From: Actinomycetota bacterium
GTDB lineage: Bacteria; Actinomycetota; Actinomycetes; Nanopelagicales; Nanopelagicaceae
Length of the DNA stretch: 64,000 nucleotides
Direction of reading: 5' to 3'
Assembly (NCBI GenBank): GCA_009698675.1
Contig: WLPT01000006.1
Span: 1 to 64,000 of the forward strand
Shown piece by piece: positions 40,864 through 53,756 of this stretch. The notes under the pieces were generated by a model. It saw only the letters and a list, made by a program, of their open reading frames with translations. It did no database searches and was not told the DNA's origin. The position numbers were made by a program, and so were the translations under genes. Position 1 is the stretch's first letter; each line of letters opens with the position of its first letter.

Positions 40864-41340
40864 CTATGGCACCTGCACAAGTGCATTAGCGATTACAAAT
40901 ACGCCTTCACCGCGACCAGTAAAGCCCATCGCATCAGATGTCGTTGCTGCAACAGAAACTGGTGCACCAAGTGCCTGGCTTAAAACCTCTTGGGCTTCGG
41001 CTCTACGTGGTGTAATTCTTGGTTCATTGCCAATAATCTGTAGAGCTACGTTGTTGATTACAAATCCTTTTTTAGTAACGAGCTCTTTCACATGTGCAAG
41101 CATTGCAACTCCAGTTACGCCGGCCCATTCAGGACGATCAACGCCAAAGAGTTCACCGATGTCACCAAGTTGGCATGCAGATAACACTGCATCACATATT
41201 GCGTGCACCGCTGCATCACCATCGGAGTGTGCGACTAATCCATTAACATCTGGCCACTCAAGTCCGGCCAAGAAACATGGACCGGTTACGCCATACTTAT
41301 GCGCATCGACACCGATTCCAGTTCGGATTTTAGAGCTCAA
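40864..41340 (-). CDS. ispF: 2-C-methyl-D-erythritol 2,4-cyclodiphosphate synthase
   Basis: 158 residues from a TTG start that overlaps the HPr stop. The signature GIGVDAHKYG and LVAHSDGDAAVHAICDAVLSA holds the zinc ligands. It closes the cyclodiphosphate ring in the MEP isoprenoid pathway. In other actinobacteria ispD lies immediately upstream; here HPr does, and ispD lies about 11 kb away. Confidence 0.95.
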   Translation of the reverse strand: MSSKIRTGIGVDAHKYGVTGPCFLAGLEWPDVNGLVAHSDGDAAVHAICDAVLSACQLGDIGELFGVDRPEWAGVTGVAMLAHVKELVTKKGFVINNVALQIIGNEPRITPRRAEAQEVLSQALGAPVSVAATTSDAMGFTGRGEGVFVIANALVQVP

Positions 41341-41612: not shown

Positions 41613-41694
41613 GGGCGATAGCGTAATGCGTAGAGTGAGTAGTGTTTAATAGGAACATCCATTCAACCCCGTGCACATATGTGAAAGTCGGACT

Positions 41695-42696
41695 ATGACT
41701 ACTGCGCCGCTCCTAATTGGACATCCGCTCGCCTCCAAAGAACATGCTCGTCATGCTCTGCTCTATATGTGCCGAATTAGAAAATTTGAAGAGGCCGTGG
41801 AGGATTTATTCGGACGCGGGATGATGCATGGAACGATGCACTTATCTATTGGTCAGGAAGCATCGCCAACTGGAATGTGTATGGCGCTCAATCTCACTGA
41901 CCAGATTACGTCGACGCACCGCGGTCATGGACATTGCATCGCTAAGGGCGCTGATTTAACGCGCATGATCGCCGAACTTCTTGGTAAAGAGATTGGATAC
42001 TGCGGCGGTCGAGGCGGAAGTATGCATATTGCCGATGTTGATACAGGAAATTTAGGAGCTAACGGTGTTGTAGGTGGCGGAATTCCAATTGCCGCTGGTG
42101 CAGCTCTTGCCTCAAAGATGATGAAGAGCGGGAAAGTAGTTGTCTCGTTTTTCGGAGATGGTGCCATGAATGAAGGTGCTTTCCACGAGGCGGCGAACTT
42201 GGCGGCAATCTGGAAACTACCGATGATTTTATTCTGCGAAAATAATAAATATGGAATGAGCTCCTCGACTGAAAAGGCATTTGCAATCGATAATTTGAAG
42301 GATCGCGCTCTTGGATATGGAATTCCATCGGTCAATGTTGATGGTAACGATGTTGTGGCTGTCTATGAGCAAGCTCAAATCGCCGCTGACCGTGCCCGAA
42401 ATGGTGAAGGCCCAACTTTAATTGTCGCCGAAACATATCGCTGGAAGGGCCACTCACGCTCTGATAAGAATTTATACCGCACAAAAGAGGAGATTGAAGA
42501 GTGGAGACTCTTAGATCCAATCCCTAAGTTTGTCGAGAAAATTCTTGAGTCAAAGCTAATGGAGCAGAGCGAAATCGATGCCATCCAAGCCGAAGCCCAG
42601 GATCAAGTAATTGCCGCAGTAAACGAGGCAGTGAAAGCCAAATCTGCTGAACCCTCCGGCTTATTAGCTGCAGTTTTTAAGGAGATCAGCGCATGA
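41695..42696 (+). CDS. Thiamine-diphosphate dehydrogenase E1 alpha subunit (pyruvate/acetoin type)
   Basis: About 333 residues from the ATG at 41695 (the track ORF begins at an upstream GTG). It shows the TPP motif [19 protein letters not shown] with NNKYGMSSS after it, and [11 protein letters not shown]. This is the alpha subunit of a heterotetrameric 2-oxo-acid or acetoin dehydrogenase. It is coupled to E1 beta by a 4-bp overlap. The oxidised substrate is not known; position in a sugar-alcohol cassette suggests a ketose-derived or acetoin-like compound. Confidence 0.87.
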
Positions 42697-43691
42697 GCGA
42701 TCGCATGTTGACCATGGCTGAAGCCGTCCGCGAAGCGATGAGTATCGCCTTCGATGAACGTCCCGAGGTATTCCTGCTCGGAGAAGACGTAGGAATTTAT
42801 GGTGGAGCCTTCGGTGTCTCTGCAGATATGTACCATCGTTATGGTGCCGAACGAGTACTTGATACACCGATCGCCGAACTCGGCATTGTTGGTGCAGCTG
42901 TAGGCGCAGCCCTTGCTGGAATGCGCCCAATCGTTGAAATTCAATTCTCTGACTTCACTGCACAGGCGATGGATCAAATTGCAAATCAAGCCGCCAAGAT
43001 TCACTTCATGCTAGGTGGTGCGCTACATGTCCCTATGGTTTTACGTACACCGCAAGGCTCAGGTACCGGCGCTGCCGCTCAGCACTCACAAAATCTTGAG
43101 CCGTGGTTTGCAAGTGTGCCAGGATTAAAAGTTGTTGTGCCATCTAACCCGGCCGATGCTAAAGGTCTACTTCTCTCTGCCATCGATGATCCCAATCCAG
43201 TTATTTTCTTAGAGCACAAACTGCTCTATAAGATTCCTGGTCGCGATAGCGTTCCAGTGGGCTCAGGACGTATTCCACTAGGCGTTGCTAAAGTCGTTCG
43301 CGAAGGAAAAGATTTAACAATTGTTGCAACGGGAATTATGGTCAACAAATCCTGGGAGGTCTGTGAAAAACTTGCAGCCGAAGGTATCTCAATTACATTA
43401 ATCGATCCGCGTACAATCTCTCCGCTAGATATGCAGCCTGTATATGAGTCCGTTGAAAAAACCGGACGTCTACTAGTTGTACAAGAAGGCCCATCACACG
43501 CAGGCTTCATCAATGAAGTAATTGCGCAAATGGCTGGAAGCTCCTCTTTTGGCTCATTAATCGCACCGATTAAGCGCCTAGCGGGGATGAATATCCCTAT
43601 CCCATATGCTCCACAACTTGAAAAAGCTGCGGTACCTCAAATTGAAGATATCGAAATCGCCGCACGAGACATAGTAAAGAACTGGCGATGA
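42693..43691 (+). CDS. Thiamine-diphosphate dehydrogenase E1 beta subunit (pyruvate/acetoin type)
   Basis: 332 residues. TPP-contacting [15 protein letters not shown] and the transketolase-like Pyr domain, [20 protein letters not shown] and [16 protein letters not shown], then a C-terminal domain with [10 protein letters not shown], are typical. It forms the alpha2-beta2 E1 with the gene before it and overlaps the E2 gene by 4 bp. Like its partner it cannot be assigned between pyruvate, branched-chain and acetoin substrates from sequence. Confidence 0.88.
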
Positions 43692-44707
43692 GTTTTAAAT
43701 ATCCGGTAGTCATGCCGAAGATGAGCATGACAATGGAAACTGGAGAGCTCATCGGCTATCACGTTAAAGCTGGAGACAGCGTTAAGACTGGTGATGTCTT
43801 ATTTGAGGTAATGACCGACAAGATCGACATGGAAGTTGAGGCGCCCGCCGATGGAGTTATTGAATCTTTAGTGGCCGAACCTGGTGCCGTTATTGATATT
43901 GGTAAACCCGTATTAATAATGTTGACCGAAACCCAGATTATGGCCTTTGATTTTTCAGGCGATGAGGCGCCAGTTGTAGCTCAACCAGTTGCACTCGCTG
44001 TCGTTGAAGCGCCCGTTCCTGCACCAGCGGTGGTGCTCAACAATGACGTAAAGGCCGTACCAAAGGCGCGCGTTGAAGCGGCTAAGCGTGGAATAGATCT
44101 GCGCACAATTCAACCAACTGGACCAGATCGAACCATCATGATGGCCGACATTAACTCGGCTCAGGCCGATCCGGCAGTGCGTAAACGTCAGGCGGCCAAT
44201 AAAGCCCTCATCGCTAAAGGCATTGCGATGGGCCGAGAGATCCCGCAGAGCTCATTTAGTCGTAGCGTTTCAACTAACTTCGATCATGCCAGGCTTATAA
44301 GTTCATGGGCGCGCATTTTGCGCTCACGTCCAGATTTATCAATTCGCCCTCAAGTCGGCGTTGCAGTGATTATCGAGTCAAAATATGGAAGCGCGCTACC
44401 GGTTTTTAAAGATCCTGATTTGATGTCACTTGCTGATCTAACTTCGCTTATTTCATCGACAAGTAGCGCCGCAGTCAATGGCAAGGTCCCTCTGGAGATG
44501 CTCTCTGGTGCAACGACCACGATCTTTGATTTAACGAGCTACTCAATGAACGCGGCGACACCATTGCTTTTTCCTAACCAAATCACTTCCGTGACGGTTG
44601 GATATGAATCCGCCACTACAAGAAATATTTCGCTAACTATTGATTTGCGATACTGCGACTTTTATGATGGCGCACAACTCTTAGATGCCCTGGCCGCTTC
44701 CCTCTAG
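43688..44707 (+). CDS. Dihydrolipoyl acyltransferase (E2)-like protein lacking the catalytic His
   Basis: 339 residues: lipoyl domain (1-77, lipoyl Lys45 in MTDKIDME), subunit-binding domain (about 110-152, [19 protein letters not shown]) and a shortened acyltransferase-like domain (about 165-339). The family motif DHRxxDG is replaced by [10 protein letters not shown] near residue 319: the catalytic His is Leu and three residues are inserted. Swinging-arm transfer is therefore intact but acyl transfer to CoA is doubtful. No E3 gene is near. Follows E1 beta with a 4-bp overlap. Confidence 0.83.
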
Positions 44708-44733: not shown

Positions 44734-46428
44734 GTGATTACTCTTACTGGCATACCTGCGAGTTCAGGTGCGGCCATTGGTCCATTTTTTCTTTTAACTA
44801 CCGATATTCCAGTTGCATCGTCGGCACCATCTCAACTTGGCGCCGAGCAAGAGGGCGCACATTTAAATCAAGCGCTTGCATCAGTTGGGCGAGATTTACA
44901 ATCACGGGCTGAGAGAACTGAGGGTGAACTTCACGAAATCTTGGTTGCGATCGCAGAGATTGCTACCGATCCTGCAATTGCTGAAGAGGCGATTTCATTT
45001 ATTGAAAAAGGTCACACCGCAAGTTATGCCATTACGAAAGCGACAGAGGTTTTCCAAGATTTATTAGCCGCCTCTGGTGGATATTTAGCCGAGCGCGTCA
45101 GTGATGTGATGAATATTCGCGATCGTGTGTTGTGTGAAATTGCAGGCACTGGCTATCCAGAAATTCCGCATTTTGACCGACCTGTAATTCTTATTGCTCA
45201 AGATTTATCACCGGCAGATACTGCAGATTTAGAGACTCACATGATTCTTGCGATTGTCACTGCCGGGGGTGGACCGACTAGCCACACGGCCATCATCGCG
45301 TGCTCGAATGGAATTGCCGCCGTGGTTGCCTGTGCTGGTGTTGTAGAGCTTGCAAGGAGCTTGCCTGATGCGGTTATTGCCGTAGATGCGACAGTTGGCT
45401 CGGTTACTTTCAATCCCTCAATCGAGTTAAGCGGTGAGATTGAGGCGATAATCGCGAAAATTAAGCTCCGTAAATCAAGAGTCGTCACTAGAACAGATGG
45501 TGCATATACAACCACTGATGGTGTGAAGATTCCGATCTATGCAAATATCGGGCGAATTGAAGATACCCCGGCAGCGGTAACGGCTGGCGCCGATGGTGTT
45601 GGATTATTACGAACTGAACTCTTGTACTTAGATCGCAATGATGCACCTACACTTCAAGAGCAGACGGCAATTTATGCCGAGATTTTTAAATCCTTTAACG
45701 GACAGAAAGTTGTAATCCGTACTTTGGATGCTGGGGCAGATAAGCCAATGGCTTTTATTAACTTTGACCAGGAGCCAAATCCAGCTTTAGGCGTGCGCGG
45801 CTACCGCACAATTGATCAACATGAGAATCTATTGCGTACTCAGCTTGAGGCAATCGCTGCAGCAGCAAAGAGTTGCAGCGCTGAAATTTGGGTAATGGCT
45901 CCCATGATTACTCTGCCTAGTGAAGCTGCACGTTTTGTTTCAATAGCGCATGAGTATGGTTTAGAAAAAGTTGGAATTATGATCGAGGTTCCTGCCGCAA
46001 TTTTTCATATCGATGAATTAACAAAGATTTGTGATTTTGTCTCGATTGGAACTAATGATTTAGGTCAGTACTTGCATGCTGCAGATCGTGAATCGGCACC
46101 ACTTGCCGCCTTTAATGATCCTTGGCAACCGGCACTTCTCCGAGCAATAAAAATAATTGCCGACGCTGGAATAAAGAATAATTGTCCAGTTGGAGTCTGC
46201 GGAGAGGCGGCATCAGATGCGGCTTTAGCATCCGTACTCATCGGTAGCGGTATTACGTCACTTTCATGCGGTGTCACAACGCTTTCAGATGTGGCAGCTG
46301 CGATTAGCGCGCAAAGCTTGCACACGCTCAAAACCGCTGCTGCCGCAGCCTTAAATGCATCAGATGCCAATACCGCAAAGCAGGCAGCGCGATCGGCAAT
46401 GCCTGATTTAGTCGAACTAGGGTTATAA
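44734..46428 (+). CDS. ptsI: PTS Enzyme I (phosphoenolpyruvate-protein phosphotransferase)
   Basis: 564 residues from a GTG start. The N-terminal ITLTGIPASSGAAIGP, active-site His184 in GGGPTSHTAII, PEP-site GLLRTELLYL, and C-terminal GVCGEAASD (catalytic Cys) are all present. It phosphorylates HPr using PEP. It lies 26 bp after the E2-like gene and 99 bp before the SorC-type regulator, within the sugar-alcohol cassette, so the general PTS proteins may be dedicated to this one system. Confidence 0.93.
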   Translation: MITLTGIPASSGAAIGPFFLLTTDIPVASSAPSQLGAEQEGAHLNQALASVGRDLQSRAERTEGELHEILVAIAEIATDPAIAEEAISFIEKGHTASYAITKATEVFQDLLAASGGYLAERVSDVMNIRDRVLCEIAGTGYPEIPHFDRPVILIAQDLSPADTADLETHMILAIVTAGGGPTSHTAIIACSNGIAAVVACAGVVELARSLPDAVIAVDATVGSVTFNPSIELSGEIEAIIAKIKLRKSRVVTRTDGAYTTTDGVKIPIYANIGRIEDTPAAVTAGADGVGLLRTELLYLDRNDAPTLQEQTAIYAEIFKSFNGQKVVIRTLDAGADKPMAFINFDQEPNPALGVRGYRTIDQHENLLRTQLEAIAAAAKSCSAEIWVMAPMITLPSEAARFVSIAHEYGLEKVGIMIEVPAAIFHIDELTKICDFVSIGTNDLGQYLHAADRESAPLAAFNDPWQPALLRAIKIIADAGIKNNCPVGVCGEAASDAALASVLIGSGITSLSCGVTTLSDVAAAISAQSLHTLKTAAAAALNASDANTAKQAARSAMPDLVELGL

Positions 46429-46527: not shown

Positions 46528-47502
46528 GTGACTATAGTGAAACAGCGCGAGACGGAGTTAATCCTTCGCGCGGCCCGCATGTACTACGAGGCCCATTTTT
46601 CACAGGACCAAGTTGCAGCAGAGCTACATACTTCCCGTTCAAATATTTCGCGGATGCTCACAGATGCTAAGCGGCTGGGTTTCGTTGAGATCCGAGTTGT
46701 TAGCCCCGCTCATCATCACGAAGCGCTTTCAGCCCAGCTCTCATCACTACTTAAAATTAATGATGTTCAAGTCATCGTTACAACATCAAATGATTTAACG
46801 CTCAACACCATCGGGCGAGCTGCAGCAAATGCTCTACTTTCCGGACTTCGCGATAATCAAACCATTGCTATCTCGTGGGGGCGTGGACTTGAAGCAACGG
46901 TAGTAAACACGCACTCTCAGAGCTTCTCTGGTTTGAAAGTCACCCAACTTATGGGTTCACTCTCATCGGTTTCAACTTCGGTAAGTGCTGAAGAGGTTGG
47001 TCGCAACTTAGCTAAAAACCTCAATGCGCAGTTTGTTCCATTTTTAGCACCGGTCGTTGTTAGCAATAGTAAAGTCCGCGACTCACTATTAGAGGAAGAG
47101 AGCATCTCAAAGACTCTCCAACTTGCACGTGGCGCACATGTAGCGTTAGTAGGCATCGGCTCGGTCGGTTCCTCATCAAGTGAAATGGTTTTTAGTGAGT
47201 TTAAAACCTCCAAGAGCGAGCGTGAGGCGTTGAGTCAAGATTATGCTGGAGATATCGCTGCACGTTTCTACAAGCGTGATGGTTCCTCCTTATCTTCTAA
47301 GTTAGATAACCGAGTCATTGGGCTTACGTTGGATGAGATCCGTGCAATCCCTCGTGTCATCGGTGTAGCAGTTGGAGCTGAAAAAGTTCTCGGAGTGGTC
47401 GGGGCGGCACGTTCGGGTTTAATCGATACATTAATACTTGACTTAGCGTGTGCTAATTCAATTGTGAAATCACTCCAACCATTGGCGGTAAAAAGCGCAT
47501 GA
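46528..47502 (+). CDS. SorC/DeoR-type sugar-binding transcriptional regulator
   Basis: 324 residues. An N-terminal helix-turn-helix (AARMYYEAHFSQDQVAAELHTS) is joined to a SorC-family sugar-phosphate-binding domain (about 60-320; ISWGRGLEATV, GVAVGAEKVLGVVGAARSG). Such proteins activate or repress sugar-alcohol operons depending on a phosphorylated sugar. It overlaps gutM by 4 bp and so heads the PTS operon. Start GTG at 46528; another GTG nine bases on is possible. Confidence 0.87.
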   Translation: MTIVKQRETELILRAARMYYEAHFSQDQVAAELHTSRSNISRMLTDAKRLGFVEIRVVSPAHHHEALSAQLSSLLKINDVQVIVTTSNDLTLNTIGRAAANALLSGLRDNQTIAISWGRGLEATVVNTHSQSFSGLKVTQLMGSLSSVSTSVSAEEVGRNLAKNLNAQFVPFLAPVVVSNSKVRDSLLEEESISKTLQLARGAHVALVGIGSVGSSSSEMVFSEFKTSKSEREALSQDYAGDIAARFYKRDGSSLSSKLDNRVIGLTLDEIRAIPRVIGVAVGAEKVLGVVGAARSGLIDTLILDLACANSIVKSLQPLAVKSA

Positions 47503-47900
47503 CGAATCTCGGCAAGATCTTCATTCTTATCGGAATTATGTGGCTTTTCCAGCTGTGGTTTGCATACAAGCAGGCGATGTTTTTCCAAAAGGATATCGGT
47601 GGCCTTCGCAAAGAGGGCACTATGGCTATAGGTCTAGGTGGACGGCGTTACCGCGGTGGACGTGCATTTGTGGCGTTAGCGTGCGATGAGAGCGGAATCG
47701 TAAAGCGAGGAATGGTCCTTAAGGGATTCACTATCTTCGCGCGTTCTAAGCCGCTCGATACATATACAGGATTCTCCATCGAGGAGATCGCTTCGGGAAA
47801 CCGAGTAGTTCAAAGTGAGAAGAAGAAGGTGCAAGAGGCGGCTCAATCGTCGGCTCAGCACATTCTCGAACACTTTGAGCGGATCAAGTCGGGAGAATAA
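47499..47900 (+). CDS. gutM: GutM/SrlM family glucitol operon regulatory protein
   Basis: 133 residues. One N-terminal membrane helix (IFILIGIMWLFQLWFAY) and a body GLGGRRYRGGRAFVALACDESG match the GutM family, encoded next to glucitol-type PTS genes. In E. coli it is an accessory activator of the operon. It lies between the regulator and EIIC, supporting a sugar-alcohol substrate. Confidence 0.83.
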   Translation: MTNLGKIFILIGIMWLFQLWFAYKQAMFFQKDIGGLRKEGTMAIGLGGRRYRGGRAFVALACDESGIVKRGMVLKGFTIFARSKPLDTYTGFSIEEIASGNRVVQSEKKKVQEAAQSSAQHILEHFERIKSGE

Positions 47901-47967: not shown

Positions 47968-48561
47968 TTGAACCTACAGTCACTGATTTTGTTATCAGCT
48001 GATGTAACAGTGGATAAGCAAACGGGCTTTCTCGGCGCGTTAGCAACCGCTGCTGAAGACTTTATTAAAGTCTTCAACAAGGGTGGATCAGTTCTTCTCT
48101 CACTTATGGGCGGAATTCTTCCAACACTGATTGTTCTTCTTACAGCAGTAAATGCTCTCGTTCGTCTAATCGGCGCAGAGCGAATTGAGAACCTAGGAAA
48201 GGCAGCTGCTCGACCTGGACTTCAATGGTATCCAGTTCGCTACATCATCCTTCCCTTCGTTGCAGTTTTCGTTCTAACAAACCCAATGGCGTACACAATG
48301 GGTCGCTTTTTACCAGAACGCTTCAAGCCTGCGTTCTATGACTCAGCGGTCTCATTTGTTCACCCAATCTTGGGTATTTTCCCACACGCTAACCCAGGTG
48401 AGCTCTTCGTATACGTAGGCATTGCAACTGGTATCCAGCAACTCGGTTTTGGTCTTGGAGACCTAGCTGTTCGCTACTTGCTTGTTGGTCTTGTCGTCAT
48501 ATTCATTCGTGGAATCGTTACTGAAGCGATTACTGCACGAATGATGAAGAAGGGAGCATAA
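47968..48561 (+). CDS. srlA: Glucitol-type PTS permease EIIC (SrlA-like)
   Basis: 197 residues from a TTG preceded by GGAGG. Several hydrophobic helices and motifs GGILPTLIVLLTAVNALVRLIGAERIENL, TNPMAYTMGRFLPERFKP and HPILGIFPHANPGELFVYVGIA are those of SrlA/GutA EIIC2. It forms the membrane channel with the next gene. The natural substrate may be sorbitol or another polyol. Confidence 0.9.
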   Translation: MNLQSLILLSADVTVDKQTGFLGALATAAEDFIKVFNKGGSVLLSLMGGILPTLIVLLTAVNALVRLIGAERIENLGKAAARPGLQWYPVRYIILPFVAVFVLTNPMAYTMGRFLPERFKPAFYDSAVSFVHPILGIFPHANPGELFVYVGIATGIQQLGFGLGDLAVRYLLVGLVVIFIRGIVTEAITARMMKKGA

Positions 48562-48563
48562 CC

Positions 48564-49109
48564 GTGGGTGCATTTAATAGTCTCATCGTAAAGATTGGCC
48601 GAGGCGTTGGTGGAGTAGTTGGTACTCTCTATCAGGCTGGACGTGATTCTGTTGACACAGTAATCCGTAACGTCATTCCATTCATGGCTTTCATCTCATT
48701 CATTATCGGTTTAATTTTGACAACCGGTATTGGTGACTGGATTGCAAAGGGACTTAAGGGATCAGCTTCAACGCTTCCAGGTCTTTTGTTAATCTCAGTA
48801 GTCTGTGCAATTCCACTTATCTCTCCACTGCTTGGACCAGGAGCGGTAATCGCACAGATCGTTGGAACTCTTCTTGGCGTTGAAATTGGTAAGGGAAATA
48901 TTCCTGCCCAATACTCATTGCCAGCGTTGTTTGCTATCAACCCACAGGTTGGTTGCGACTTCATCCCTGTAGGCCTTGCTCTCGGTGAAGCCGAGCCTGA
49001 GACTGTAGAGATTGGTGTTCCAGCGGTGCTCATTAGCCGTCTGTTCACTGGCCCTCTATCAGTTGTCATCGCTTACTTCGCTAGCTTCGGTCTATACACA
49101 AGCAAGTAA
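48564..49109 (+). CDS. srlE: Glucitol-type PTS permease, C-terminal EIIBC membrane half (SrlE-like)
   Basis: 181 residues that match only the membrane half of E. coli SrlE (SLLISPLL-like LISPLLGPGAVIAQIVGTLLG, LPALFAINPQVGCDFIPVGLALGEAE). The B domain is a separate gene at 49198. It starts 2 bp after EIIC. The reversed and split arrangement differs from the single srlE gene of enteric bacteria. Confidence 0.87.
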   Translation: MGAFNSLIVKIGRGVGGVVGTLYQAGRDSVDTVIRNVIPFMAFISFIIGLILTTGIGDWIAKGLKGSASTLPGLLLISVVCAIPLISPLLGPGAVIAQIVGTLLGVEIGKGNIPAQYSLPALFAINPQVGCDFIPVGLALGEAEPETVEIGVPAVLISRLFTGPLSVVIAYFASFGLYTSK

Positions 49110-49197: not shown

Positions 49198-49569
49198 ATG
49201 GCAAGTTATAAGACAGTAGTTGTATCTGCAGGCAAAGGTGGCTGGGGTGGGCCTTTAACAATTACTCCAACTGAGGATCGCCCTTATATTTATTCAGTCA
49301 CTGGTGGAGGAATCCATCCCATCGCCGCACGCATCGCTGAACTAACCGGTGGAATTCCATTCGATGGTTTTAAGAGCAGCGTCCCCTTCGACAAGATTGC
49401 AGTCGCAGTTATCGACTGCGGTGGAACCGCTCGTGTCGGTGTCTATCCAATGAAGAAAGTTCTAACCGTTGATATTCATGCAACAAGCCCCGCTGGACCA
49501 CTAGCGATGTTTATTACTGCCGAGCTCTTTGTCTCCGGCGTAAAAGCTGACAACATTGTAGAAAAGTAA
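49198..49569 (+). CDS. Glucitol-type PTS EIIB subunit
   Basis: 123 residues equivalent to the N-terminal domain of SrlE. Motifs GKGGWGGPLTI and AVIDCGGTARVGVYP hold the phosphorylated Cys (Cys74). It takes phosphate from EIIA and passes it to the polyol during transport. An AAAGGGGAAG ribosome site precedes the ATG. EIIA follows directly. Confidence 0.9.
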   Translation: MASYKTVVVSAGKGGWGGPLTITPTEDRPYIYSVTGGGIHPIAARIAELTGGIPFDGFKSSVPFDKIAVAVIDCGGTARVGVYPMKKVLTVDIHATSPAGPLAMFITAELFVSGVKADNIVEK

Positions 49570-49941
49570 ATGTCGGAAGTTGTTTACTCATCGACAGTTA
49601 CGGCTGTCGGCGAGTTAGTTCCTGAATTTGCTGAACAGGGCGTATTAGTCTGGTTCGGCGAGAACGCGCCGATTGAGCTGCATGAGTTCTCGATTATTCA
49701 TAGGCCTGAACTCGCGCTACGGGCGCCAGAAGTTGGCGACATTATCAAGATTAATGAAACTACTTTTAATGTACTCGCTGTCGGCTCCGTGTCCAGCGAA
49801 AACCTTTTAAATCTCGGCCATTTAGATCTTAAAGCCAACGGGTTGAATGAACCTGAAATGCCTGGAGATGTGAATGTGGAAGCAGTGCCGCTTCCAACTG
49901 TAAAAATCGGAGATCGCTTTACTGTGATCTCACAACCTTAA
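49570..49941 (+). CDS. srlB: Glucitol-type PTS EIIA subunit (SrlB-like)
   Basis: 123 residues matching the PTSIIA_gutA family: APIELHEFSIIH (phospho-His region), GDIIKINETTFNVLAVGSVSSENLLNLGHLDL and a conserved ending. It receives phosphate from HPr and passes it to EIIB. It abuts the EIIB gene. Confidence 0.9.
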   Translation: MSEVVYSSTVTAVGELVPEFAEQGVLVWFGENAPIELHEFSIIHRPELALRAPEVGDIIKINETTFNVLAVGSVSSENLLNLGHLDLKANGLNEPEMPGDVNVEAVPLPTVKIGDRFTVISQP

Positions 49942-49955
49942 GAAAAGAGCTTTCC

Positions 49956-51248
49956 GTGTCATATTCAACTCGTTTAGCAGATCACGCCAAGAAACAGGGC
50001 CGCAATACGCGTATCGCCCTCGTAGGTGCAGGACAGATGGGACGTGGTTTTGGTAACCAATTAGGTCACATGACTGGGATCTCCCTTTCAGTTGTCATCG
50101 ATATTGATCCAGCCCGCATCCAAACTGTTTATTCAGATCTTGGAATAAGTGATGTTGTTATTAGCGATGATTTAAAGGTTTTATCAGATGCAATTTTGGC
50201 GGGCAAGCACACAGGCACAAGTAATTCAGAGTTAGTATCAAAACTTCCAGTCGATGTAGTAGTCGAGGCAACAGGTGTTCCAGATATTGGAGCACGGGTT
50301 ACTCACTCATCACTCTTAGCAAAAAAGCACGTCGCGGTTTTAAATGTTGAAATGGATGTAACTATTGGGCCACTTCTGCACCATATTGCAGTAGAAAACG
50401 GCGTGGTCTACGCCGTTTGTCATGGGGATGAACCAGTTGAAGCCAAAGTTCTCGTTGACTATGCACGGGATTTAAACTTTGAAATCGTTGCCGCTGGAAA
50501 GGGCAAGAACAATCCCTTTGAACCTTTGAGTAACCCTGACTCTGTCAAAGAGGTCGCTGCAAAAAAGAAGATGAATCCTAAGATGCTCTGTTCATTTACA
50601 GATGGATCGAAGACGATGACTGAGATGGTTGCACTTGCTAATACAACTGGCCTTCAACTCTCAAAGCGAGGCATGTATGGACCGGCAGCTACTGTAAAGA
50701 CTTTGCAGGATGTCTTTGCGTTGCAGGCCGATGGTGGAGTACTAGATCACCCAGGCGTTGTTGATTACTGCACTGGAGATGTTGCGCCAGGTGTATTCGT
50801 AGTTGTCCGACACAACGACCCTTACATCGCACATGAGATGAGCTATTTATCGATGGGTCCTGGCCCTTACTTCACGCTATATCGCCCCTTTCACTTAGCT
50901 TCAGTCGAAGCTCCAATTACGGTCTACCGTGCGATTTTGGATAATGAGTCATCATTGTTTGCACCGCACTTAAACGCCGAAGTTGTCTGCATGACAAAGA
51001 AAGTTCTTGCAATCGGCGATGTGATTGATGGAATTGGTGGCTATACAGTTAGAGGTTATGCCGATAATGCACTCGATGCCAAGTCAGATAACTTAGTACC
51101 AATCGGATTAATCGCTGGTGCAAAGATTATTAAGGCAATCGGTGTAGGAGAGCTTCTTACCTATGATCATGTAGAACTAAAATCTGATTCCTTGATTGTT
51201 GCCTTGCGCAAACAGCAGGATGAGATGGGACTTACTTACGCTTCCTAA
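49956..51248 (+). CDS. NAD(P)-binding oxidoreductase with C-terminal SAF domain (COG4091-like)
   Basis: 430 residues from a GTG start. The N-terminal Rossmann loop is IALVGAGQMGRGFGNQ; the middle has EATGVPDIGA and the C-terminus a SAF-like region (LAIGDVIDGIGGYTVRG...AGAKIIKA). It fits COG4091, annotated as predicted homoserine dehydrogenase with SAF domain. Here it takes the place of the SrlD dehydrogenase in a glucitol-type operon, so oxidation of the imported polyol phosphate is a reasonable guess. Not proven. Confidence 0.78.
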   Translation: MSYSTRLADHAKKQGRNTRIALVGAGQMGRGFGNQLGHMTGISLSVVIDIDPARIQTVYSDLGISDVVISDDLKVLSDAILAGKHTGTSNSELVSKLPVDVVVEATGVPDIGARVTHSSLLAKKHVAVLNVEMDVTIGPLLHHIAVENGVVYAVCHGDEPVEAKVLVDYARDLNFEIVAAGKGKNNPFEPLSNPDSVKEVAAKKKMNPKMLCSFTDGSKTMTEMVALANTTGLQLSKRGMYGPAATVKTLQDVFALQADGGVLDHPGVVDYCTGDVAPGVFVVVRHNDPYIAHEMSYLSMGPGPYFTLYRPFHLASVEAPITVYRAILDNESSLFAPHLNAEVVCMTKKVLAIGDVIDGIGGYTVRGYADNALDAKSDNLVPIGLIAGAKIIKAIGVGELLTYDHVELKSDSLIVALRKQQDEMGLTYAS

Positions 51249-51496
51249 TCTTCATCTTTCGTAAGGCCTAGCTCTTTCATCATCGCGCGTTGGCGTTTTG
51301 TTAATGGATCTTTAGCTTTCTCTTTTCGCACCGCTTTTGTATCGGGGCGAAGTTCGGGGTGCAGGCCTAGTTGGCGGCGCAGCTCCTCCTGAGCGGGCGT
51401 AAACATCTTCGAGTCACGCTCGCGTCGAGCATGGTGCTTGGCGATGATTTCTGCCGCCTCATCGATGGGCGCCTTCTTTTTACGTCGACCGAGCAT
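51245..51496 (-). CDS. Small charged protein of unknown function
   Basis: About 83 residues from the ATG at 51496 (MLGRRKKKAPIDEAAE); the six codons before it in the track are unlikely. It is very rich in Lys, Arg and Glu with a helical look, and its 3' end overlaps the dehydrogenase gene by 4 bp on the other strand. I do not recognise a family. It is divergent from ispD with 26 bp between starts. Confidence 0.6.
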   Translation of the reverse strand: MLGRRKKKAPIDEAAEIIAKHHARRERDSKMFTPAQEELRRQLGLHPELRPDTKAVRKEKAKDPLTKRQRAMMKELGLTKDED

Positions 51497-51522
51497 GCAG
51501 GAATCATGACACAATTACAGGT

Positions 51523-52224
51523 ATGAAAGCGCAGATTAAAGCCGCACTCGTCGTGTTGGCGGCAGGATCTGGTCAGCGCTTTGGCCATTCAACCAACAAG
51601 GTCTGGCTCCCAATAAGTGGCCGACGCATTATTTCGCGATCTTTGATGAACGCGTCAAAAAGCTTTCCTCATGGGCGAACGGTTTTAGTAATCAACCCAG
51701 ATGACGAGGAGCTAGCTCGCGCAACTATCGAACGCGAAGTTCGTCATCTCAATGTTGAAATCGTCTACGGGGGTGCAACTCGGCACGAATCTGAGTTTCA
51801 TGCACTTGAGTATTTAGCGAGTGCAATTGAGGCCGGTGAGATTGACGTTGTACTCATTCATGATGGTGCGCGACCTTTGGCAACCCCCGCACTCTTTGCG
51901 CAGATTGCCGAAGCGGCCCATCGTCACGGAGGTGCAATTCCTACAATCGCCGTCGAGCAACGTGAGATGGATACTGCGCATAGGGATAGAGTTGTTCGAG
52001 TACAGACTCCGCAGGGATTTCATGCGCGCCAATTGTTAGAGGCATACCGTAAGGCCTCAATTGATGGCTTTACTGGAACCGATACGGCGGCCTGTATGGA
52101 GAAGTATTTTCCAGATGTTAAGACGATGGCAATCACTGCAGATGTTTCAAATGTAAAGATTACCTATCCGCAGGATTTGGCCATCGCTGAACATGTATTA
52201 GCTAGAAGGGGGTACAAGGATTGA
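51523..52224 (+). CDS. ispD: 2-C-methyl-D-erythritol 4-phosphate cytidylyltransferase (or ribitol-5-P cytidylyltransferase-like)
   Basis: 233 residues. The CTP-binding loop VVLAAGSGQRFGHSTNKVWL, HDGARPL, RVQTPQGFHARQL and SNVKITYPQDLAIAEHVL are present as in IspD. The stretch around the IspD DT-x-K/VDR segment is replaced by AVEQREMDTAHRDR. It probably performs IspD chemistry; the related TarI (ribitol-5-phosphate) is the main alternative, notable given the polyol PTS next door. It sits inside the inserted block on the plus strand, not in its usual place beside carD. Confidence 0.78.
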   Translation: MKAQIKAALVVLAAGSGQRFGHSTNKVWLPISGRRIISRSLMNASKSFPHGRTVLVINPDDEELARATIEREVRHLNVEIVYGGATRHESEFHALEYLASAIEAGEIDVVLIHDGARPLATPALFAQIAEAAHRHGGAIPTIAVEQREMDTAHRDRVVRVQTPQGFHARQLLEAYRKASIDGFTGTDTAACMEKYFPDVKTMAITADVSNVKITYPQDLAIAEHVLARRGYKD

Positions 52225-52532
52225 GTAAGGAAATTATTGAAGCATCGCTCAACTGCCCCCACTGCAGAAAAGAGACGGTACACCAGTTGGTGTATGCCGG
52301 TCGACTCTTAGTTTCAACTACCTGCACTGATTGCAATAGTCGAGTAGAGCACGAGAGCAATGACTTATGGGATCACTACATCAAAGATTTAGAACATCGA
52401 ATAGCTACTAAACCTTTTCGCTTATGGAAACGTTTTTGGCGAGCACCAAAATCGCTCCTGTGGAATCTTCCTAAATCCACCTTTGGAAAGCCCATTAAGA
52501 TGCTCAAGGAGTATCGCAACCTTAAAAAGTAG
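52221..52532 (+). CDS. Zinc-ribbon protein of unknown function
   Basis: 103 residues from a TTG that overlaps the ispD stop. CPHC at residues 12-15 and CTDC some 20 residues later form a zinc ribbon; a basic C-terminal half (LWKRFWRAPKSLL...) follows. It resembles small zinc-ribbon proteins annotated as bh protein in Actinobacteria, of unknown role. Tight coupling with ispD suggests cotranscription. Confidence 0.7.
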   Translation: MSKEIIEASLNCPHCRKETVHQLVYAGRLLVSTTCTDCNSRVEHESNDLWDHYIKDLEHRIATKPFRLWKRFWRAPKSLLWNLPKSTFGKPIKMLKEYRNLKK

Positions 52533-53154
52533 CCACGCTTTGCTGCCAGTGGATAAAAGACTCCATCAGTGCAATCTCTGACTCAGAGTTAACGCGCAGA
52601 CTTTCAGGATCGGCATCAACGAGAGCGGTTTTTGCCTCTCTCTTAAGCGGCACAAACCATGTTGAATCAGTGGAGTCACAATCAATAGCGCTAAAACGAA
52701 TCATCTCAGGCGTAGATATGCGCATCATGCTTGTTCGATCGACCGAGCGCTCAATGAATTGACTCCCATTGACTATCTTTAGTGACTCAGTAAATACCGC
52801 CGCTGGACGTACAGCGTCGACATCTCCAACAAGGGCACCGAGTGTGCGGTGGAACTGTGTGGTGCGCGTTAAAGGTCGTAACGCATCGTGAATTGCGATT
52901 ATTTCGCAAGGGGTTGAATCTGCGATTGCACGAGCTAGCCATTGAGGTGAATTAGGGTCGCACTCAAGGATTGGACATCCGAATCCTTGGACACTCGCAG
53001 GATCGCTTGTGGCGATTGCAATTGTCGCATCTACTCCGGTTTCAACAGTGAACGCTCTGGCAACGGCCATAGATGCGTGAAGAATTGAATGCTTATCTAG
53101 TTGAGAAAACGAGATAGGCGAGGTGACTGCAACAACGACTTTAAGAGTTGTCAC
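52522..53154 (-). CDS. Degenerate IspD-like protein at the carD locus
   Basis: 210 residues from a GTG 3 bp after carD. The position is that of ispD in other actinobacteria, and AIHDALRPLTR, a VFTESLKIV loop, SVDRTSMMRISTPEM and LRVNSESEIALME line up with IspD. The N-terminal CTP-binding loop LAAGxGxR...K is absent (VAVTSPISFSQLDKH instead). It is the likely ancestral copy that lost nucleotide binding, or a partner subunit for the second IspD. Its 3' end overlaps the zinc-ribbon gene by 11 bp. Confidence 0.72.
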   Translation of the reverse strand: MTTLKVVVAVTSPISFSQLDKHSILHASMAVARAFTVETGVDATIAIATSDPASVQGFGCPILECDPNSPQWLARAIADSTPCEIIAIHDALRPLTRTTQFHRTLGALVGDVDAVRPAAVFTESLKIVNGSQFIERSVDRTSMMRISTPEMIRFSAIDCDSTDSTWFVPLKREAKTALVDADPESLRVNSESEIALMESFIHWQQSVATF

Positions 53155-53157
53155 GAA

Positions 53158-53640
53158 TTAAGAGGCAAGAACCTCGTCAAGGATGGTTGCAGCCTTCTCT
53201 TCATCAGTGCGCTCAGCAAGAGCGAGCTCTGAGATTAGAATCTGCTTCGCCTTGGCGAGCATGCGCTTTTCACCAGCTGAAAGTCCTCGATCTAAGTCGC
53301 GGCGATAGAGATCGCGCACAACCTCAGCAACCTTAATAACATCGCCAGAGGCTAGCTTCTCAAGGTTGGCCTTATATCGGCGGGACCAGTTAGTTGGCTC
53401 TTCGGTATATGGCTGACGTAGGACATTAAATACACGATCTAGACCGGCAGAATCGACAACATCGCGCACGCCTACAAGGTCTACATTCTCTGCCGGGACT
53501 CGAACAGTTAAGTCACCTTGAGCGATTTTCAACACTAGATAGGTCTTTTCTTCACCTTTGATCACGCGCATCTCAATTGCTTCGATGAGAGCTGCTCCGT
53601 GATGGGGATAAACAACGGTTTCGCCGACCTTAAATGTCAT
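53158..53640 (-). CDS. carD: CarD family transcriptional regulator
   Basis: 160 residues from the ATG at 53640; eight upstream codons in the track are excluded because [20 protein letters not shown] is the standard CarD start. The Tudor-like RNA-polymerase-interacting domain (1-60) and the helical DNA-binding domain ([28 protein letters not shown]) are present. It stabilises the open promoter complex, especially at rRNA promoters, and is essential in mycobacteria. Confidence 0.94.
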
Positions 53641-53756
53641 GTGTTGCCCTTCGATAGAGGACAATTGTACCAGCGATTAGGTAGCCAGTCACCCTGCCAT
53701 ATTTAGCGTAAAACCAGCGTATTTCACTGGTTATTTCATGTGAGAGAATACCTCTC

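Follow-up and report, generated by a model that had tools for sequence, protein, structure and literature searches.

Two IspD homologues with reciprocal active-site losses and a probable heterodimer in Nanopelagicaceae

Genes at the locus

The window analysed here, a stretch of 64,000 nucleotides from a bacterium of the family Nanopelagicaceae (contig WLPT01000006.1), carries two divergent homologues of IspD on opposite strands, termed IspD2 (plus strand) and IspD1 (minus strand). Both open reading frames are present where the earlier note on this DNA had placed them, and the genes that bear directly on them are as follows:

40864..41340, minus strand: IspF (TIGR00151, 155 bits), standing alone here; relatives that lack the pair have it fused to IspD
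51523..52224, plus strand: IspD2, an IspD homologue with an intact CTP site and K213 side, β-arm mostly gone
52221..52532, plus strand: small CxxC zinc-ribbon-like protein of 103 residues
52522..53154, minus strand: IspD1, a predicted IspD-fold partner adjoining carD; CTP loop gone, β-arm (ESLK, VDR) present
53158..53664, minus strand: CarD (PF21095, 128 bits), marker of the ancestral ispD site

That the carD side is the ancestral site of ispD, as had been proposed, is borne out by relatives with a single IspD, which show the gene order carD-ispDF-cysS-rlmB (L045/L046). In the window, a plus-strand block of about 11 kb lies between ispF and IspD1.

IspD2 matched PF01128 over approximately its full length (139 bits, columns 3-220), whereas IspD1 matched it at columns 87-166 only (34.5 bits). 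Scores with TIGR00453 were 159.8 bits for IspD2 and 40.2 bits for IspD1. Both genes thus fall under the curated cut-off of this model (181.3 bits), and annotation can miss an essential step.

Residues were numbered after E. coli IspD (MG1655 sequence) and compared by column alignment. IspD2 of the window has G16, G18, R20, K27, R85, S88, D106, R109, T165 and K213, and shares with canonical IspD the CTP loop and the HDxARP, QTPQ and NxKIT motifs. It lacks D139, T140 and K142, and its arm is about nine residues shorter. IspD1 has E139, S140, K142 and R157, in keeping with the DTxK and VDR segments of the IspD β-arm, and it shares with IspD the carD neighbourhood and the context of the MEP pathway. 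At the CTP-side columns it carries T16, P18, S85 and W88, while the columns of R20 and K27 lie inside a deletion that halves the CTP loop. The residue alignment therefore agrees with the earlier description of one copy that kept the CTP side and lost most of its substrate arm, and of another that kept the arm segment and lost the CTP loop. The one departure is an arginine aligned at position 157 in IspD2 of the window, which recurs in one other of 54 IspD2 sequences, so that this position is not conserved in IspD2.

Reciprocal losses, constraint and distribution

The residue census covered 37 canonical IspD sequences together with 54 each of IspD2 and IspD1, the latter two groups drawn from several actinobacterial families. 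All canonical sequences have G16, G18, R20, K27, R85, S88, T/S140 and R157, and K142 is present in 34 of the 37. Among the IspD2 sequences, R85, S88, D106, R109, T165 and K213 are found in 54/54, and G16, R20 and K27 in 53/54, the remaining sequence being cut by a contig end. T140 and K142 occur in none of them. R157 is found in two, the window's copy being one. The IspD1 sequences have T/S140, K142, R157 and P166 without exception (54/54), K27 in no case and R20 in three. Segment lengths show the same split as the residues, with a median arm of 22 residues in IspD2 versus 31 and a median CTP loop of 8 residues in IspD1 versus 16. The three groups did not overlap. Looking for the features of a complete one-chain IspD, we found the CTP loop in IspD2 only and T140, K142 and R157 together only on IspD1. 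Each partner keeps what the other has lost, and because the split recurs in 54 + 54 sequences, it does not reflect chance or a sequencing artefact.

Both genes are under purifying selection. Pairwise NG86 estimates, which are rough owing to dS saturation, gave a median dN/dS of 0.13 for IspD1 (range 0.06-0.23, 16 pairs) and of 0.066 for IspD2 (18 pairs), such that both copies are constrained in relatives, a point that the earlier note had proposed to check. The extracted ORFs of both genes contain no internal stops. IspD1 evolves fast, with a mean column identity of 39%. Judging by AlphaFold models, both proteins are of the IspD fold: the IspD1 model (pLDDT 95.3) has two long strands in the arm region and IspD 2xwm as its best PDB match in Foldseek, and the IspD2 model (pLDDT 88.9) has shorter strands in this region and IspD 5ddt as its best match. 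In the tree, IspD2 formed one clade (SH-aLRT 99). For IspD1, one common origin is compatible with the data but not established (AU p 0.6), and long branches leave its placement unsure.

A search of the order recovered IspD1 in 39 of 296 genomes at scores of at least 194 bits, the next match being at 81 bits, and IspD2 adjoins it in convergent orientation in all 39. The pair adjoins carD in g1, g5, g7, g8 and g17, whereas in g4 its neighbour is tgt or the zwf region; given these different sites, it has moved as a unit. No IspD1 outside the family was found among 397 Actinomycetota at E <= 1e-22, a cut-off that proved too strict. More divergent IspD1 partners beyond the family came to light when the DXR-II alignment was used for scanning, and pairs of this type are present in Klenkia, Modestobacter, Nocardioides, Kineosporia, Nocardia, Mycolicibacterium and other Nanopelagicales. 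The two genes also occur together at most other actinomycete loci that were read, the less certain cases being L182 and loci of Nitriliruptorales. In the latter (L204, L205 and L210), an armless IspD2-like gene is present with no recognised IspD1 in reach. At L205 (L205:6493-7434), an ORF beside ispF has a weak arm-like stretch (ADALKR...LARDG) and may be a further degenerate partner, although this is only suggestive. The relatives examined were mostly MAGs. One of these (G274, 6% contamination) has two IspD1 loci, C29 and C130, probably from two strains.

Of 61 family genomes sampled, 11 had the pair without a further complete IspD. A single IspD of about 164-223 bits, in many cases fused to IspF, is present in most of the remaining genomes; a few that are incomplete have no IspD or a fragment only. 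No third complete ispD was detected in the window's genome or in ten relatives, among them G051, assembled as a single contig, and G003, which is 100% complete. The C7 match in the window's genome, considered as a third ispD, was taken as GlmU (N-terminal match, 475-residue frame). Outside the family, the genomes of seven isolates (Klenkia, Modestobacter, Nocardioides and Mycolicibacterium) showed no IspD besides the pair, and DXS and DXR-I are present in all six of these that were tested. Nocardia and Kineosporia carry an additional IspD besides the pair.

A probable heterodimer

The earlier note had called a heterodimer conceivable and had named two observations that would speak against it, namely a third complete ispD elsewhere in the genome and a deleted or broken carD-side copy in relatives. 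The first was found in none of the 11 family pair genomes and seven isolates, the second in none of the ORFs extracted from pair genomes, and the heterodimer has become the best-supported reading. We consider it very probable that IspD1 and IspD2 associate as an obligate heterodimer with one composite active site.

We take T140 and R157 to belong to the site of the neighbouring chain, as assigned in the E. coli structure. For the β-arm as a whole this has been stated in the literature, which describes the arm as both the dimer hook and the MEP site, and the dimer interface as the active site (PMC11770629, PMC11796317). Thr140 of IspD hydrogen-bonds the methylerythritol moiety. In the proposed heterodimer, IspD2 would give the CTP-binding loop together with K213 and the remaining residues of the CTP side, and IspD1 would give the β-arm (T/S140, K142, R157), which would reach into the active site of its partner and hold MEP as the substrate. 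A dimer of IspD2 only would be without arm residues and a dimer of IspD1 only without a CTP site, each protein presumably being inactive alone, and the mixed dimer would have one complete site. It would work with this one site instead of two because the nucleotide site of IspD1 is dead and the IspD2 arm, which would serve only that dead site, is shortened.

The two halves of the active site would thus lie on two paralogous chains, whereas in known IspD they are contributed by one homodimeric chain. Trans-complementing pseudoenzyme pairs offer a parallel: in trypanosomatid deoxyhypusine synthase, one paralogue without catalytic activity supplies what its partner's active site needs to be complete; that enzyme is unrelated, and here both members have lost complementary halves. 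Nothing relevant on a heterodimeric IspD appeared in the literature searched. As a target of drugs and herbicides, the essential IspD has been studied extensively and is described as a homodimer; a two-gene IspD with a single composite site would, if true, be a new architecture and a natural instance of duplicated subunits with reciprocal losses. It is directly testable in culturable Klenkia and Nocardioides, which carry the pair.

Some observations count against the heterodimer. The fast evolution of IspD1 also fits a less constrained role, and the armless gene of Nitriliruptorales without a recognised partner as well as the extra IspD of Nocardia and Kineosporia are further such observations. 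IspD1 might instead be a pseudoenzyme that binds either MEP or IspD2 and regulates flux, with IspD2 acting as a homodimer with an unusual MEP site. Such a role would suit an intact arm next to a dead nucleotide site, and the genes with which the pair is associated may increase cellular MEP. However, IspD1 keeps the residues missing from IspD2 across the set, which a regulator need not show, and we regard this explanation as unlikely.

The earlier note had also envisaged that IspD2 replaced IspD, leaving IspD1 as a decaying remnant of the ancestral gene. The location of IspD1 at the ancestral carD site in several genera and the loss of its catalytic residues are consistent with decay, as are a few scans with one stop within the matched stretch, a stop that is not seen in the extracted ORFs. 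Decay nevertheless clashes with arm residues that are invariant in 54/54 sequences, with a dN/dS around 0.13 and with the joint relocation of the pair away from carD in g4, and an armless IspD2 would not be a complete IspD by itself, which makes this account very improbable. Least credible is the suggestion of a TarI-like role for IspD2, with a PTS providing the polyol phosphate that it uses and with IspD1 as a separate protein: a sorbitol-type PTS does lie in the same cluster and IspD2 shares superfamily, fold and CTP loop with TarI, but its similarity to the ribitol-5-phosphate cytidylyltransferase model is weak (NF001183, 71 bits, versus 160 bits with the NCBIfam ispD model), 14 genomes have DXR-II, IspD2 and IspD1 loci without the PTS, and if the pair is discounted, genomes in which the MEP pathway is otherwise present would be left without any IspD (27 of 29 have IspH).

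DXR-II, the PTS/E1/E2 cluster and methylerythritol

The plus-strand genes that precede IspD2, which the earlier note had left out, encode DXR-II and a PTS/E1/E2 cluster:

41671..42696, plus strand: E1 alpha of a 2-oxoacid/acetoin-dehydrogenase-type complex (PF00676, 288 bits)
42693..43691, plus strand: E1 beta of the same complex (NF006667, 349 bits)
43688..44707, plus strand: E2-like lipoyl protein, acyltransferase His lost (PF00364, 61 bits; PF00198, 29 bits; motif [10 protein letters not shown])
44734..46428, plus strand: PTS enzyme I (TIGR01417, 365 bits)
46528..47502, plus strand: SorC/DeoR-type sugar-binding regulator (PF04198, 190 bits)
47499..47900, plus strand: GutM-like protein (PF06923, 73 bits)
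47968..48561, plus strand: SrlA, sorbitol-type PTS IIC (NF049923, 223 bits)
48564..49109, plus strand: SrlE, C-terminal part (NF049924, 281.8 bits, positions 157-330)
49198..49569, plus strand: SrlE, N-terminal part (PF03612, 168 bits)
49570..49941, plus strand: SrlB/GutA, sorbitol-type PTS IIA (TIGR00849, 97.5 bits)
49956..51248, plus strand: DXR-II (DRL; PF21135, 207 bits), adjoining IspD2

The last of these is predicted to be a type II DXP reductoisomerase, with the DLO1 and DLO2 clades as possible alternative placements. It matched Brucella DXR-II (3upy) at 293 bits. Its K182, K184, T220 and R310, invariant in 13 sequences, correspond to K191, K193, T229 and R320 in Brucella numbering, and it differs from the Brucella protein at H250 (Y) and V351 (N). 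H250 is present in all but four known DXR-II members (PMC3847144). Within the order, DXR-I was found in one of the 39 pair genomes, and DXR-II replaces it in the other 38. Among family genomes tested, those without the pair have DXR-I (13/13) and not DXR-II (0/13), and those with the pair have DXR-II (11/11). In G249, the sole pair genome with DXR-I (98% complete), IspH was not found.

We divided the pair genomes into type A (n=25), with the sorbitol-type PTS, PTS enzyme I, the regulator, E1 alpha, E1 beta and E2, and type B (n=14), without those genes. Nineteen type A genomes have the PTS on the contig, five, whose contigs are cut, were assigned by their zinc-ribbon gene, and in one the PTS subunits are deleted; for two type B genomes the assignment relied only on the absence of the zinc-ribbon gene. 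DXS was not found in any of the 13 type A genomes outside g4, six of which are at least 92% complete, and was found in 9 of the 12 type A genomes of g4 and in all 14 of type B. The 13-versus-14 contrast (Fisher 5e-8) is not a clean test, as the genomes are related and were grouped after the data had been seen. DXS is also missing from the window's genome, but at 78% assembly completeness this proves little alone.

The combination of PTS, DXR-II and E1/E2 recurs in Aquiluna, Klenkia, Micropruina, Tissierella, Halanaerobium and others. The cluster of PTS, SorC regulator, GutM, DXR-II and E1/E2 (L168-L213) extends across Actinomycetota and some Bacillota, with or without IspD2. In Aquiluna it occurs with a normal IspDF.

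The sorbitol PTS of Salmonella carries 2-C-methyl-D-erythritol, as cited from Testa, Cornish and Poulter (2004) in PMC3994034 and PMC12323621. Homologues of SrlA, SrlE, SrlB and GutM are present in the window operon, where the putative methylerythritol PTS differs in its linkage to DXR-II, E1/E2 and IspD2. This transport activity, the recurrence of the cluster and the pattern of DXS absence led us to propose that methylerythritol is imported and used. That such import feeds the pathway may be the case, and is a separate claim, less certain than the heterodimer. The sorbitol-type PTS would import and phosphorylate 2-C-methyl-D-erythritol to MEP, part of which the IspD1-IspD2 heterodimer would route to isoprenoids. 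DXR-II, running in reverse, would convert the rest to DXP, and E1/E2 would cleave DXP, as acetoin dehydrogenase does acetoin, to acetyl-CoA and glyceraldehyde 3-phosphate. Full-cluster lineages outside g4, probably including that of the window, would have lost DXS and come to depend on external methylerythritol, for which plants, algae or isoprene-derived aerosol are possible sources. Taken jointly, a split IspD within a methylerythritol-use system, with PTS import, reverse DXR-II, E1/E2 cleavage, DXS loss and external dependence, is a tentative reading that we hold to be possible rather than probable.

A weak point of the proposed methylerythritol use is the loss of the catalytic acyltransferase His from E2 in Nanopelagicaceae clusters, the residue being kept (DHRxxDG or DHRxxEG) in Klenkia, Micropruina and Halanaerobium. 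We also considered E1 alpha/beta as a replacement for DXS, a possible role that leaves the PTS unexplained. The cluster provides a concrete hypothesis for isoprenoid synthesis without DXS in some freshwater actinobacteria, and methylerythritol as a nutrient of these organisms is a link absent from the literature searched.

Three further features of these loci were observed. The DXS of the g4 genomes G003, G043, G284, G290, G291 and G293 is missing about 40 residues between model positions 184-192 and 230. Type A clusters have the zinc-ribbon-like gene 3' of IspD2, as do Klenkia, Kineosporia, Nocardia and Mycolicibacterium, and type B lacks it. A minus-strand ORF of 89 residues between DXR-II and IspD2 (51245-51514) gave no family match and is conserved in most type A loci.
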